Source: a virus
Virus record (IMG/VR): IMGVR_UViG_3300021600_000633
Span: 1 to 25,088 of that record
Length of the DNA: 25,088 bases
Direction: 5' to 3' (one strand)
Shown here: positions 1,596-25,088 of the stretch, in pieces
Position numbering within the stretch: position 1 is the first letter of the stretch
How the letters are laid out: each line of letters begins with the position of its first letter
Position numbers and translations under genes: made by a program
The notes under the pieces: model-generated
What the model saw: only the letters and a program-made list of their open reading frames with translations
The model's database searches: none
What the model was told of the DNA's origin: nothing

Positions 1596-1630
1596 GAGAC
1601 CCACCGTGATGCAACTCAACGGTGGGTCTC
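1596..1630. repeat. Conserved-loop hairpin A (loop GATGCAACTCA)
   Basis: A perfect 12-bp inverted repeat (GAGACCCACCGT with its complement) encloses an 11-base loop that contains GATGCAACT on the plus strand, so the minus-strand transcript reads AGTTGCATC. It is one of four exact GATGCAACT copies in the window, all of them loops. It ends 6 bases before the integrase ATG. Confidence 0.85.
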
Positions 1631-1707: not shown

Positions 1708-1757
1708 CCCATTGGTTGCATCATTTGCCTAAGCAAAGACCCTTTCGGGACAATGGG
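1708..1757 (-). other. Branched fold E with GATGCAAC
   Basis: On the minus strand a 7-bp closing stem (CCCATTG/CAATGGG) encloses two small hairpins. One is CCC-GAAA-GGG, which has a GNRA-type loop. The other is TTTGC-TTAG-GCAAA. A single-stranded TGATGCAAC follows, just before the closing arm. The GATGCAAC matches the loop motif of the four hairpins elsewhere. The fold starts about 23 bases from the predicted transcription start. Confidence 0.6.
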
Positions 1758-13787: not shown

Positions 13788-13820
13788 CTGCCCGATAAAG
13801 ATGCAACTCTTATCGGGCAG
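13788..13820. repeat. Conserved-loop hairpin B (loop AGATGCAACTC)
   Basis: A perfect 11-bp inverted repeat (CTGCCCGATAA with its complement) around an 11-base loop holding GATGCAACT on the plus strand (AGTTGCATC in the mRNA). The stem sequence is unrelated to hairpin A. No T-tract follows on the minus strand, so it is not a normal terminator. It lies between the small KE-rich gene and the connector gene. Confidence 0.85.
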
Positions 13821-18068: not shown

Positions 18069-18120
18069 AAAAAAAGCCCAAATGGCATTTAATCTCGTAA
18101 GACTAAATATCATTTGGGCT
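18069..18120 (-). terminator. Terminator-like structure directly before the portal gene
   Basis: On the minus strand a 10-bp stem (AGCCCAAATG/CATTTGGGCT) is capped by a second stem, ATTTAGTCT-TACG-AGATTAAAT, and followed by TTTTTTTATTTT, which runs into the portal ATG. It has the form of an intrinsic terminator inside a gene cluster that should continue, so it may act as an attenuator for the late genes. Its inner loop is one of three TACG loops in a row. Confidence 0.7.
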
Positions 18121-18161
18121 CGTAAGCCTCACAGCCAACACCTCGTAAGATGCTATGCTGT
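18087..18161 (-). repeat. Three hairpins sharing a CTTACGAG core
   Basis: CTTACGAG occurs at 18149-18142, 18126-18119 and 18101-18094 (spacing 23 and 25 bases). Each copy is the TACG loop and closing bases of a hairpin with different outer stems: ACAGC..GCATCT/AGGTGT..GCTGT, GGCT/AGCC, and ATTTAGTCT/AGATTAAAT. Wobble pairs fall mainly on the minus strand, so the RNA is likely read there. The first hairpin includes the stop codon of the zinc-ribbon gene. Confidence 0.7.
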
Positions 18162-22292: not shown

Positions 22293-23105
22293 TTATTTCT
22301 TAATTCTCATTTTTTCCCTTAGCGCATCAATAGATTTCTGCACGCTCTTTTTTCTTTCAGGATCGACCTCTGCCTGATTAGTATAAATCTGTGTATTCTT
22401 CCTTAACTCAAGATCTCTTTTTTTAGCCAGCACTTCTTCATCAATCTTTGAATTCCCTAGCCAATTAGCGAAAGCCAATATTGGCTTTTTCCAACCCTTG
22501 CGAGGATATCCAAACCACCACTCTCTGCATTTAAGAGCCTGAAGCTCATAATCCCTGCTTGGATATTTCTCAATTAATTTTTTAATGGTTTGTACCTGAC
22601 TGGTTTTGAGTTCTTCAATTTCCAAAGCGACCAAAGCCTTTGCGAAATTATCCTGATCAATCCCCTCTCCTAAAATTTTAATTTCGTCATCGCTGTAAAT
22701 ATATTTCTTTTCATTCTTTTCATTCTTGTTTGTTCTTATTTGATTCTTGTTTGTTTCCTGATTTGATTCCGATTTGTTTCCAACATCCTGATACTTATCC
22801 CAATTCTTTATCGTTATAATGCTGTATTTGTTCGTTTTTTTGATTCCAATCATTCCCTCCTTCTCAAGAAAATTCAGCCAATACCATATCGTTGATTTTG
22901 CAAGCCTTAATTTCTCCTCCGCCGTCAGACTTCCCATGATAAACTGACCCCTCTTGACTCTCACTTTTTGCCTCCCGATCAGCGACAAATTTTCACAATG
23001 ATTTGTCTTGGCCAAACACCATATCCAAATCTTCAGGCATTTATCGCTCTGAAAGACCACACTGTCAATTATTTTTCTGTGCGTTTTAAACCATCCGCTA
23101 TTCAT
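22293..23105 (-). CDS. Replication initiator/DnaD-like winged-helix protein
   Basis: I choose ATG 23105 (270 residues); an in-frame GTG at 23123 lies inside the leader hairpin. The start MNSGWFKTHRKIIDS is typical of phage replication proteins with an N-terminal winged helix (VKRGQFIMGSLTAEEKLRLA, then STIWYWLNFLEKEGMI). The middle is charged. The C-terminal part (about residues 170-230) has WWFGYPRKGWKKPILAFANW. Such proteins open the origin or load helicase. No helicase or loader is visible in this window. The 164-base leader before it is strongly structured. Confidence 0.75.
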   Translation of the reverse strand: MNSGWFKTHRKIIDSVVFQSDKCLKIWIWCLAKTNHCENLSLIGRQKVRVKRGQFIMGSLTAEEKLRLAKSTIWYWLNFLEKEGMIGIKKTNKYSIITIKNWDKYQDVGNKSESNQETNKNQIRTNKNEKNEKKYIYSDDEIKILGEGIDQDNFAKALVALEIEELKTSQVQTIKKLIEKYPSRDYELQALKCREWWFGYPRKGWKKPILAFANWLGNSKIDEEVLAKKRDLELRKNTQIYTNQAEVDPERKKSVQKSIDALREKMRIKK

Positions 23106-23116
23106 ATTTTTAATTA

Positions 23117-23165
23117 CTTTCACCTGCCTCCCTAACCACTTAAAGAGGCATGTGAAAGGTGGTTA
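23117..23165 (-). promoter_or_regulatory. RBS-hiding leader switch G2, before the replication gene
   Basis: On the minus strand TAACCAC (23165-23159) is followed by CTTTCACA-TGCCTC, the loop TTTAAGTGGTTAGG, and GAGGCA-GGTGAAAG (ending 23117). The 14-position stem has a single A-G mismatch. Alternatively, TAACCAC pairs with GTGGTTA in the loop, which would displace the arm facing GGTGAAAG. The GGTGA lies 15 bases before the ATG. The same plan recurs at 24863-24921 with different stems. Confidence 0.75.
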
Positions 23166-23177
23166 TTTCGCCTAACA

Positions 23178-23218
23178 GGAAATGATGAGCAGTTGCATCG
23201 ATTAAGCTCACCATTTCC
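23178..23218 (-). repeat. Conserved-loop hairpin D (GATGCAACT)
   Basis: On the minus strand a 13-position stem (GGAAATGGTGAGC with GCTCATCATTTCC) surrounds the loop TTAATCGATGCAACT. The one non-Watson-Crick pair is G-U on this strand and would be A-C on the other. It is a tandem copy of hairpin C, two bases away. Confidence 0.85.
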
Positions 23219-23220
23219 AA

Positions 23221-23258
23221 GCGATGATGGGCAGTTGCATCAATAAGCCCACCATCGC
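23221..23258 (-). repeat. Conserved-loop hairpin C (GATGCAACT)
   Basis: On the minus strand a 12-position stem (GCGATGGTGGGC with GCCCATCATCGC) surrounds the loop TTATTGATGCAACT. It has the same G-U position as hairpin D, while the pair G-C of one stem is A-U in the other. It starts 11 bases after the SSB-like gene stop. Confidence 0.85.
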
Positions 23259-23269
23259 TCGCTAATCTT

Positions 23270-24010
23270 TTAAAATGGCACATCTTCAATGTTTATTTCT
23301 TCATCCTCATATCCACCTCCCAGCGCCTTTGTTTCCTTTGGAGCTTCCAATTGCGGTGCGCTTCTGAATGACCCTAGGATGTCTTTGGCTTTTCCAAGAT
23401 TTGCGACATAGTCAACTTTTTCGCCTTTGGAAAATGAAGCATAATAGGTATCGTTTTCAGGATCCTCCTTGATTTCGCAAATCGTTTCAAATCCCAAAAG
23501 ACTACTATCAACATTTACCAAATTGCTATATTGAAACCATTCTGATTGCGACTTTCCCATCAGCTCAAGTTTCACAATATCCTCGCCAAGCGCAACATAC
23601 AGCACACTTCGATAATTGAAATTATTGGTCGTTGTACCATCAGCCTCCTTGATTGAAAACATTGCTTTGAGGCTCTTGTAATTGCCAGTCCAAACAATGT
23701 TCTTTTTCTTGAAAACCTGAATGGTTTCGTTTTGATTTGAAGGATTGAATTCTGCCGAAATCCACCATTCGACATCCTTCTTGAATTTTGAGCTGACCTT
23801 GGCTCGAGTAAGAACAACTACGCCCTTAAGCACCTTGCTAAATTGTTCACGCACAAATGCACCTTGTTCATCTTTTGTTTTGCAAACAAACTCGCCCGTT
23901 TTATTTGTGCCTTTTTTGTCATCGCCATTGTCGACTCTGAGCGTTTTATAGGTTTTAAATTCTCCGCTTCTAAGTCCCAATGCGATCTCTAATTCTTTGT
24001 TAAGATCCAT
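23270..24010 (-). CDS. SSB-like single-stranded DNA-binding protein
   Basis: A 246-residue protein. The body is beta-rich with many Lys and aromatic residues (VEWWISAEFNPSNQNETIQV, KKKNIVWTGNYKSL, NFNYRSVLYVALGED). The C-terminus has a flexible Gly/Glu segment ending EEINIEDVPF, the acidic tip with a final Pro-Phe that SSB proteins use to bind partner enzymes. There is no classical bacterial SSB signature at the N-terminus, and length exceeds bacterial SSB, so it would be a phage-type SSB or a recombination mediator. Its place between a nuclease and the replication gene supports this. Moderate confidence. Confidence 0.6.
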   Translation of the reverse strand: MDLNKELEIALGLRSGEFKTYKTLRVDNGDDKKGTNKTGEFVCKTKDEQGAFVREQFSKVLKGVVVLTRAKVSSKFKKDVEWWISAEFNPSNQNETIQVFKKKNIVWTGNYKSLKAMFSIKEADGTTTNNFNYRSVLYVALGEDIVKLELMGKSQSEWFQYSNLVNVDSSLLGFETICEIKEDPENDTYYASFSKGEKVDYVANLGKAKDILGSFRSAPQLEAPKETKALGGGYEDEEINIEDVPF

Positions 24011-24030
24011 AAGTTTATAATTAATTTAGA

Positions 24031-24852
24031 TTAAGCTTTTCTTCTGGTTACCCTATATTTTCTCTTTTTAACTTCTTTTTTCTCCTCTTCCTTTTTTGGA
24101 AGATCGAGTTTCAATTTGATTGGAAAATCTTTTTGCGATGGCTTTTGACCCGCAGTTTCGTTGATCCAAATTTTTTGAGCAGACAAGAATAAATCGAATT
24201 TATCCTCAAGCTCCGTAAATTTGTACTCATTTTTATTGCGTTTATAGCCAATCTGCAAAATAGCAATCTTGTACGGCTGACCAGTAAGATCCTCCATCGC
24301 TTTTTTGTAAGCTGAGAGTTGAAGTTCATACTCTGGCCAAATATACTGCGAAGTTTTAAAATCGATGATCCAATTTTCATTTCCAATTTTGCAAATGAAA
24401 TCGATCGTACCAGCAAAATTATTTTTCTCGGAAAAAATAGTTGTTTCCGCTTTGATAATTTCTGGCTTTACCGATTCAAACCATTTCGTAAACGCCATCA
24501 CGCAAGCATACTCATCTGCCGAAAGTTCTTCAGTTTTTCCTTCAAACCCGTCAAATTGAGCACCAAGCCTGACCTCTTCTCCATTAAGCAAATTCTCAAT
24601 TGCTTTATGGACTCTTGATCCCTTGTCGCCTGCCGATTGTTTCAAGGATTCAGCCTCGTCCCAACCTTTGCCTGCGAGCCATTTGTAAAATGCAATTCCC
24701 TTAGGATAGTGACCAGCAACCCAAGTTACTGACGGAACAAATACCACTTTGGGTATTCCCTCGTCGTCCTTGATTGCCTTCACATACCACCTTTCATCAA
24801 CGGTTGTAATTTGAACAATGCCGTCTTTGACTTCCCTAATTTCCTTCTTCAT
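24031..24852 (-). CDS. PD-(D/E)XK nuclease, RecB/Cas4-like
   Basis: A 273-residue protein with the RecB-family order: His82 in GSRVHKAIE, E136 in AETTIF, D151 in GTIDFICK, D164-x-K166 in IIDFKTS, and Q178 in ELQLSAYKKAM. These residues bind magnesium and cleave DNA ends. The C-terminus is a basic tail (KKREYRV-like, with RRK). In phages such proteins take part in recombination with an SSB. No four-cysteine iron-sulfur cluster is visible, so it is not a typical Cas4. The start follows leader G1 by 10 bases. Confidence 0.88.
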   Translation of the reverse strand: MKKEIREVKDGIVQITTVDERWYVKAIKDDEGIPKVVFVPSVTWVAGHYPKGIAFYKWLAGKGWDEAESLKQSAGDKGSRVHKAIENLLNGEEVRLGAQFDGFEGKTEELSADEYACVMAFTKWFESVKPEIIKAETTIFSEKNNFAGTIDFICKIGNENWIIDFKTSQYIWPEYELQLSAYKKAMEDLTGQPYKIAILQIGYKRNKNEYKFTELEDKFDLFLSAQKIWINETAGQKPSQKDFPIKLKLDLPKKEEEKKEVKKRKYRVTRRKA

Positions 24853-24862
24853 AAGTTTAAGG

Positions 24863-24921
24863 CTTTCACCGCCGTCCTCGCATCGCTCAACACGAGAAAA
24901 GACGGCTGTGAAAGGAGCGAT
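24863..24921 (-). promoter_or_regulatory. RBS-hiding leader switch G1, before the PD-(D/E)XK nuclease
   Basis: On the minus strand ATCGCTC (24921-24915) is followed by CTTTCACA-GCCGTC. The loop region contains CTCG..CGAG with GAGCGAT inside, then GACGGC-GGTGAAAG (ending 24863). The stem has 13 pairs and one A-G mismatch at the same place as in G2. ATCGCTC matches GAGCGAT exactly. The TAA of the upstream gene overlaps the first base of ATCGCTC, so a terminating ribosome would cover this switch. Confidence 0.75.
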
Positions 24922-25088
24922 TAGTCTTCATATTCTTTCAATAACATTAGCTCATCAACTTGGCGTTCAATTTCCATGTCGTGAGCATCTTGTTTTTGAT
25001 CGATCCACTCAGTCAACAGACTAATGCCTGTGGCTTGGCAAATATAGATAATATTGCCTAATGTGTTTTTGAGCGATTGTGCCGACAT
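24921..25088 (-). CDS. Small hypothetical protein, 55 aa (5' end at window edge)
   Basis: An ORF from ATG at the last three bases to TAA 24923-24921. It reads MSAQSLKNTLGNIIYICQA, a helical middle with LLTEWIDQKQDAHD, and the acidic end LMLLKEYED. The real start may lie beyond the window. It has no recognised domain. Its stop codon touches leader G1, so its translation probably influences that switch. Confidence 0.6.
   Translation of the reverse strand: MSAQSLKNTLGNIIYICQATGISLLTEWIDQKQDAHDMEIERQVDELMLLKEYED

Follow-up and report, generated by a model that had tools for sequence, protein, structure and literature searches.

To our knowledge, most of what is known about structured leaders in the control of phage replication genes comes from T4 and a few models. 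The early RNase III sites of phage T7 are hairpins that lie between early genes, near the next start codon. In T4, the gene 32 operator, which precedes the SSB gene, consists of a pseudoknot of ∼28 nt and, after it, >40 nt of UUAAA repeats with less structure (PMC535899); the gene 43 operator is an 18-nt hairpin with a UAAC loop that lies ∼40 nt upstream, with an additional contact at the ribosome site, and is bound by gp43 (PMC3014915). Transient pairing that gives way to a stable fold, closing the start region, has been described for hok and for aapA3 of H. pylori (PMC6733600).

The 25,088-base stretch analyzed here, referred to as the window, is a viral contig, and its main genes are all found on the minus strand. 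These include a small ORF and genes for a PD-(D/E)XK exonuclease, an SSB-like protein, a DnaD-like helicase loader, and a RusA-like resolvase; further genes encode ParB/methyltransferase, terminase, portal, and tail proteins and an integrase. The gene starts of the window lack a Shine-Dalgarno motif and show A at −6/−5 and T at −1 instead. A genome collection scanned with the helicase loader and the portal gave zero relatives, so no host was assigned. The intergenic gaps held no promoter-like site above chance, and a search of 22900-25088 for a terminator-like site (a hairpin plus U run), as expected of a transcription attenuator, gave none. Two copies of a hairpin element, G1 and G2, precede the exonuclease and helicase loader genes, respectively.

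23165-23117, minus strand: G2, whole element, segment A plus hairpin, ending 11 nt before the helicase loader ATG at 23105
23159..23165, minus strand: G2 segment A (TAACCAC), complementary to A' and identical in related contigs
23117..23158, minus strand: G2 hairpin, 7 bp (CTTTCAC/GTGAAAG), an A.G mismatch, 11 bp, and a GUGG tetraloop
23133..23139, minus strand: G2 segment A' (GTGGTTA), the alternative partner of A
24915..24921, minus strand: G1 segment A (ATCGCTC), overlapping the stop codon end of the preceding small ORF
24863..24914, minus strand: G1 hairpin, the paralogue of that in G2; the exonuclease ATG follows after 10 nt (12-13 nt in relatives)
24882..24888, minus strand: G1 segment A' (GAGCGAT), the alternative partner of G1 A
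22293..23105, minus strand: DnaD-like helicase loader gene (PHROG 2514, E 4e-32), 11 nt 3' of G2
24031..24852, minus strand: PD-(D/E)XK exonuclease gene (PHROG 298, E 2e-36; Pfam PDDEXK_1), 3' of G1
23270..24010, minus strand: SSB-like gene, with an acidic C-terminal tip (...EDVPF) and without a family match

The structure model of the SSB-like protein (pLDDT 48.7) was too poor for use, and the leader of its gene is plain and A/T-rich, with no G element in front.

G2 reads A-TAACCAC-CTTTCACATGCCTC-TTTAA-GTGGTTA-GG-GAGGCAGGTGAAAG, followed by 11 nt and the ATG. The first-pass annotation had picked out this element from its letters; its sequence, coordinates, and distance to the ATG are confirmed, and so is the A.G mismatch that follows the outer stem of 7 bp. 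Also confirmed are the compensation at three inner pairs and the 7-bp alternative helix, which is perfect and flanked by an A.G pair. The first-pass annotation had also placed GTGGTTA in a loop; the pairing holds, but the supposed loop folds further, and the segment comprises the tetraloop and the 3 nt with which the 3' arm begins, as does GAGCGAT in G1. The predicted fold of G2 has an energy of −25.0 kcal/mol (z −4.3), and G1 folds on the same plan (z −4.0); shuffles were never as good in either case. Each element is found on the coding strand, at 10-13 nt from an ATG, and folds better in the sense than in the antisense direction (−23.6 versus −17.7 kcal/mol for the G2 hairpin); the G.U pairs of the fold are used on the sense strand only. 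The outer arms, CTTTCACA/GGTGAAAG, are shared, with 16 arm bases and the A.G mismatch identical between G1 and G2, and a search for the exact arms at the G1/G2 spacing gives two sites in the window and zero in 100 shuffles. A GTG in the G2 stem, in frame with the gene, was considered as a start codon and rejected; it is retained in the G2 copies but lies outside the shared design, because it is out of frame in G1.

Comparison of the two copies gives the best evidence for a real A:A' helix, within the limits of two paralogues. The two competing helices have 20 pairs, every one of which is retained between G1 and G2, and eight of them are changed on both sides (5/7 pairs in the alternative helix and 3/6 in the inner stem). 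Pair retention and covariation of this order were matched by 1/500 shuffles, and slid versions of the alignment gave 0-1. The chance that the 7 nt adjacent to a hairpin complement its interior is 4e-4 for G2, 1e-3 for G1, and ∼4e-7 for both. The architecture by itself is weak evidence of function, however, since tail-complementary hairpins number six genome-wide on the sense strand of the window, against 1.8 in shuffles, and eight on the antisense strand. The covariation claimed at first pass is thus present, in the form of the two-sided changes, but it is confined to one paralogue comparison, because all copies in relatives are identical.

Conservation was assessed in related contigs. All 59 letters of G1, A included, are unchanged in relatives, between flanking genes that are 77-83% identical; at 80% identity this would occur by chance with a probability of 2e-6. 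G2 is likewise unchanged (49/49 letters). The stretch upstream of it, which contains two tandem hairpins, D1 and D2, is 74-83% identical, and the downstream gene is 94-96% identical; against that adjoining gene the conservation of G2 is unexceptional (0.96^49 = 0.14). As judged from the alignments, the conservation argument is strong for G1 and weaker for G2 alone. At both loci the invariant block runs, within one or two bases, from A through B' to the end of the hairpin, which argues that A is part of the element, and the distance from G1 to the ATG differs between contigs (10, 12, and 13 nt). Recurrence in related genomes, with conserved arms and covarying stems, had been expected at first pass: every closely related contig that reaches the region has the element, but the stems in these copies show no new covariation.

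Further copies were sought by a scripted pairing scan. A tight pattern with the exact outer arms, applied to 2.9 million viral contigs of one viral collection, recovered the known clade and chance matches only and gave no further independent copy. The open pattern CTTTCACA...GGTGAAAG gave 121 matches in the viral stretches fetched plus the window, and a pairing filter showed nearly all of them to be chance. Among distant exonuclease relatives (L127-L131, 46-54% identity), the G element was not seen upstream of the gene. Rfam gave no match at the gathering score in the window or relatives, and chance matches only at E up to 10. The clade carrying G1/G2 is a small group of uncultured phages. What the analysis shows is the element itself, its conservation, the covariation between copies, and a predicted order of folding; the first-pass picture, in which a structured and conserved RNA occurs twice, each time ahead of a replication/recombination gene, and can form two exclusive helices, is upheld.

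The order of folding was examined by equilibrium folding of the growing transcript. A:A' is predicted to dominate once A' emerges, with a probability of 0.92 for G2 and 0.96 for G1; in both elements it is followed a few nucleotides later by the inner stem and then by the outer stem. Its dominance is predicted in nascent RNA only; by the time the start codon is transcribed, A:A' has already been displaced. For the full-length RNA, the predicted energies of the hairpin and the A:A' helix are −25.2 versus −6.1 and −33.5 versus −17.4 kcal/mol, a gap of 16-19 kcal/mol, and because of it almost no A:A' is expected at equilibrium. A translational riboswitch has two folds of comparable stability, of which a ligand stabilizes one; here they differ by that gap, so a "switch," as the element was called at first pass, would require active opening, or else A:A' is a folding intermediate. 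The two mutually exclusive helices thus stand, but not a ligand-driven equilibrium between them. A full pseudoknot of both helices would be sterically unlikely, as A abuts B without a linker. A partial pseudoknot, with the outer stem and A:A' formed and the inner stem open, is conceivable, because both 7-bp helices lie on one continuous strand and each is limited by an A.G pair at its outer end.

These features set G1 and G2 apart from the described systems. As with T4 gene 32, an RNA structure stands upstream of a gene and the phage encodes an SSB-like protein, and the A-B-A'-B' order formally fits a pseudoknot; the A-B linker is absent, however, and the hairpin has by far the greater stability. 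The T4 operator precedes the SSB gene, whereas G1 precedes the exonuclease and G2 the helicase loader, and in place of >40 nt of UUAAA/UAAA repeats there is a gap of just 10-13 nt between hairpin and ATG. The gene 32 operator family is therefore excluded on these two defining features, and the precedent cited at first pass fails: a long hairpin ends close to the start codon here, and the G elements do not precede the SSB-like gene. The accompanying suggestion of SSB as a ligand is unsupported, and nothing points to any ligand. T4 gene 43 also offers a likeness, since a hairpin stands in front of this replication gene too and its loop is conserved in related phages (PMC3014915). Here, by contrast, the hairpin is 42-52 nt long, lies 10-13 nt upstream, is present in two copies, and has an alternative helix; the gene 43 operator is excluded by gene identity, since that gene encodes DNA polymerase and the genes downstream of G1 and G2 encode an exonuclease and a DnaD-like loader. 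The metastable leaders provide a precedent for transient pairing, although hok and aapA3 are single toxin messages whose Shine-Dalgarno sequence stays masked until the RNA matures, and G involves neither a Shine-Dalgarno sequence nor a toxin.

A distant relative of the helicase loader, in contig L157 (52% identity over residues 1-130), has a leader of its own (L157:1978-2096), in which a sigma-70-type promoter-like sequence is followed by a terminator-like (attenuator-like) hairpin, with the same gene downstream. Two segments upstream of the hairpin, of 8 and 10 nt, complement its loop (6e-4 by chance for any 10-mer of the loop), and stepwise folding gives three successive, mutually exclusive pairings. 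The leader is unrelated to G2 in sequence and like it in the A-B-A'-B' order; it is possibly an attenuator. A 36-codon ORF spans this leader and overlaps the gene start (ATGA).

Our preferred reading, to which we give about an even chance, is that G1 and G2 are a cis-acting RNA element of the early transcript, with a closed start region and with A:A' as an ordered intermediate or a captured state. During RNA synthesis, upstream A would pair first with A', holding the 5' arm, until the inner and then the outer stem displaced it. The finished RNA would form the long hairpin, with its 3' arm ending 10-13 nt 5' of the start codon. Because these genes have no Shine-Dalgarno motifs, open sequence before the ATG should matter, and the hairpin would keep the ribosome landing zone closed. 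It would then have to be actively opened by the ribosome, a helicase, or a shared binding protein; A:A' could be an ordered folding intermediate and possibly also the state captured upon such opening. The outer arms and A.G mismatch, shared by both copies, suggest one common factor for both genes. Transcription of the element, repression of translation, the common factor, and any role of A:A' are steps that we infer.

The invariance of the element bears on several other readings. A phage or host protein could bind the CTTTCACA/GGTGAAAG stem and its A.G mismatch, repressing or activating both genes in the manner of T4 gp43 or the RNA-phage coat operators, with A:A' only guiding folding; this would be a more specific form of our best explanation, and we consider it plausible while rating it somewhat short of even. 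Both the identity of 16 arm bases and the mismatch in otherwise different copies and the invariance among relatives favor such binding, but relatives show the same invariance in the inner stem and loop, where G1 and G2 differ from each other, and the protein is hypothetical. G1 and G2 may instead be RNase III processing signals, at which a cut would split the messages and free the downstream start region. The early-type operon, the intergenic position, the gaps free of promoter-like sites above chance, and the near-perfect hairpins (18 bp plus mismatch in G2) agree with processing, hairpin length being the only compatible feature of the element itself. RNase III sites need little sequence identity, yet the loops and tail are invariant in all relatives; cutting does not account for the covarying A:A' pairing, and the alternative helix and strict sequence conservation distinguish the G elements from the T7 sites. 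We regard processing as unlikely; it and the protein operator are nonetheless live rivals.

Another possibility is that the operon is coordinated by base pairing between the loop segments of G1 and G2 and the sequence around the start of the first early gene. In relatives that gene reads TAACCACTATG...AATCGCTC, with both A motifs flanking the start codon (chance 3e-5 over 33 genes, in a post hoc test), and AATCGCTC occurs in the window copy too. The window ends at that ATG, however, so that only half of the arrangement is visible, and the closed G2 hairpin exposes only 4 nt of A' in its loop; such pairing seems to us quite improbable. Least probable of all is an element acting as DNA, such as a replication origin or a recombination or binding site: inverted repeats near a helicase loader gene, with an invariance that exceeds structural need, would suit it, but the coding-strand bias, the sense-only G.U pairs, and the location just before the ATG of two different genes argue against it. 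Phage N4 uses DNA-hairpin promoters with a giant virion polymerase; a promoter of this type was set aside, as no giant virion polymerase gene was seen in the window.

The loops of D1 and D2 are complementary to hairpin loops in other leaders.

23220..23259, minus strand: D1 hairpin, first of the tandem pair upstream of G2, with loop ...GATGCAACT
23178..23218, minus strand: D2 hairpin, second of the tandem pair, with the same loop (GATGCAACT)
23165..23172, minus strand: C' (GGCGAAAT), which can replace the 5' arm of D2 as partner of the D2 3' arm (suggestive only)
1596-1630, minus strand: integrase leader hairpin with a AGTTGCATC loop, 7 nt before the integrase ATG
13788-13820, minus strand: head-tail adaptor leader hairpin with a AGTTGCATC loop, ∼20 nt before the adaptor ATG

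Across six D copies, 12/12 stem pairs are kept, four with two-sided change, and the GATGCAACT loop stretch is invariant. Its reverse complement, AGTTGCATC, occurs twice on the sense strand (0.07 expected), and both sites form the loops of strong gene-leader hairpins, those of the integrase and the head-tail adaptor. In relatives, the adaptor hairpin has its loop kept (one base altered) and its stem changed, and the integrase hairpin is retained in the one relative that reaches it. Duplexes between the D and AGTTGCATC loops are predicted at −13 to −14 kcal/mol. This loop complementarity may be a larger find than G1/G2. We more tentatively envisage an RNA-RNA network, which we doubt more than we believe, in which two-state G1 and G2 would be tied to the start of the first early gene and the D1/D2 loops would pair with the AGTTGCATC loops, the early transcript setting integration and late expression. 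A 47-aa ORF running through D1/D2 into G2 was rejected, as the alignment shows its frame to be lost in relatives.

Several neighboring features were also recorded. In the alignment, the C':D2 pairing is kept with different letters in relatives (GAAAT/ATTTC; AGGCTG/CAGCCT). A copy of GATGCAAC at 1715-1730 (minus strand), near a promoter-like stretch before the integrase and inverted relative to the integrase leader hairpin loop, is a possible DNA operator. The portal leader (18069-18154, minus strand) contains three hairpins sharing a CTTACGAG loop, conserved in two relatives; the last has a long stem, and a T run comes after it, directly before the ATG. At the first early gene (24921-25088, minus strand, and L135), TAACCAC and AATCGCTC are found around the start codon in relatives. 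Upstream of that gene, a long, structured, strongly conserved stretch (L135:215-449 and approximately L138:210-460) is absent from the window, which is cut off there; an Rfam search of the L135/L138 stretch gave no match.

In our judgment, G1/G2 is a new RNA element acting in cis, which masks the start region and needs active opening. The paired, matching hairpins with two folds suggest, at the level of sequence, a form of on/off control not described before. G1/G2 would be a case unrelated in sequence to the known leaders, in uncultured temperate phages without Shine-Dalgarno initiation, and what is distinctive is one element before two genes, with a covarying competing helix. The analysis supplies exact base pairs for testing. 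Together with the complementary leader loops, G1 and G2 point to RNA-based timing in a phage group that has not been grown.
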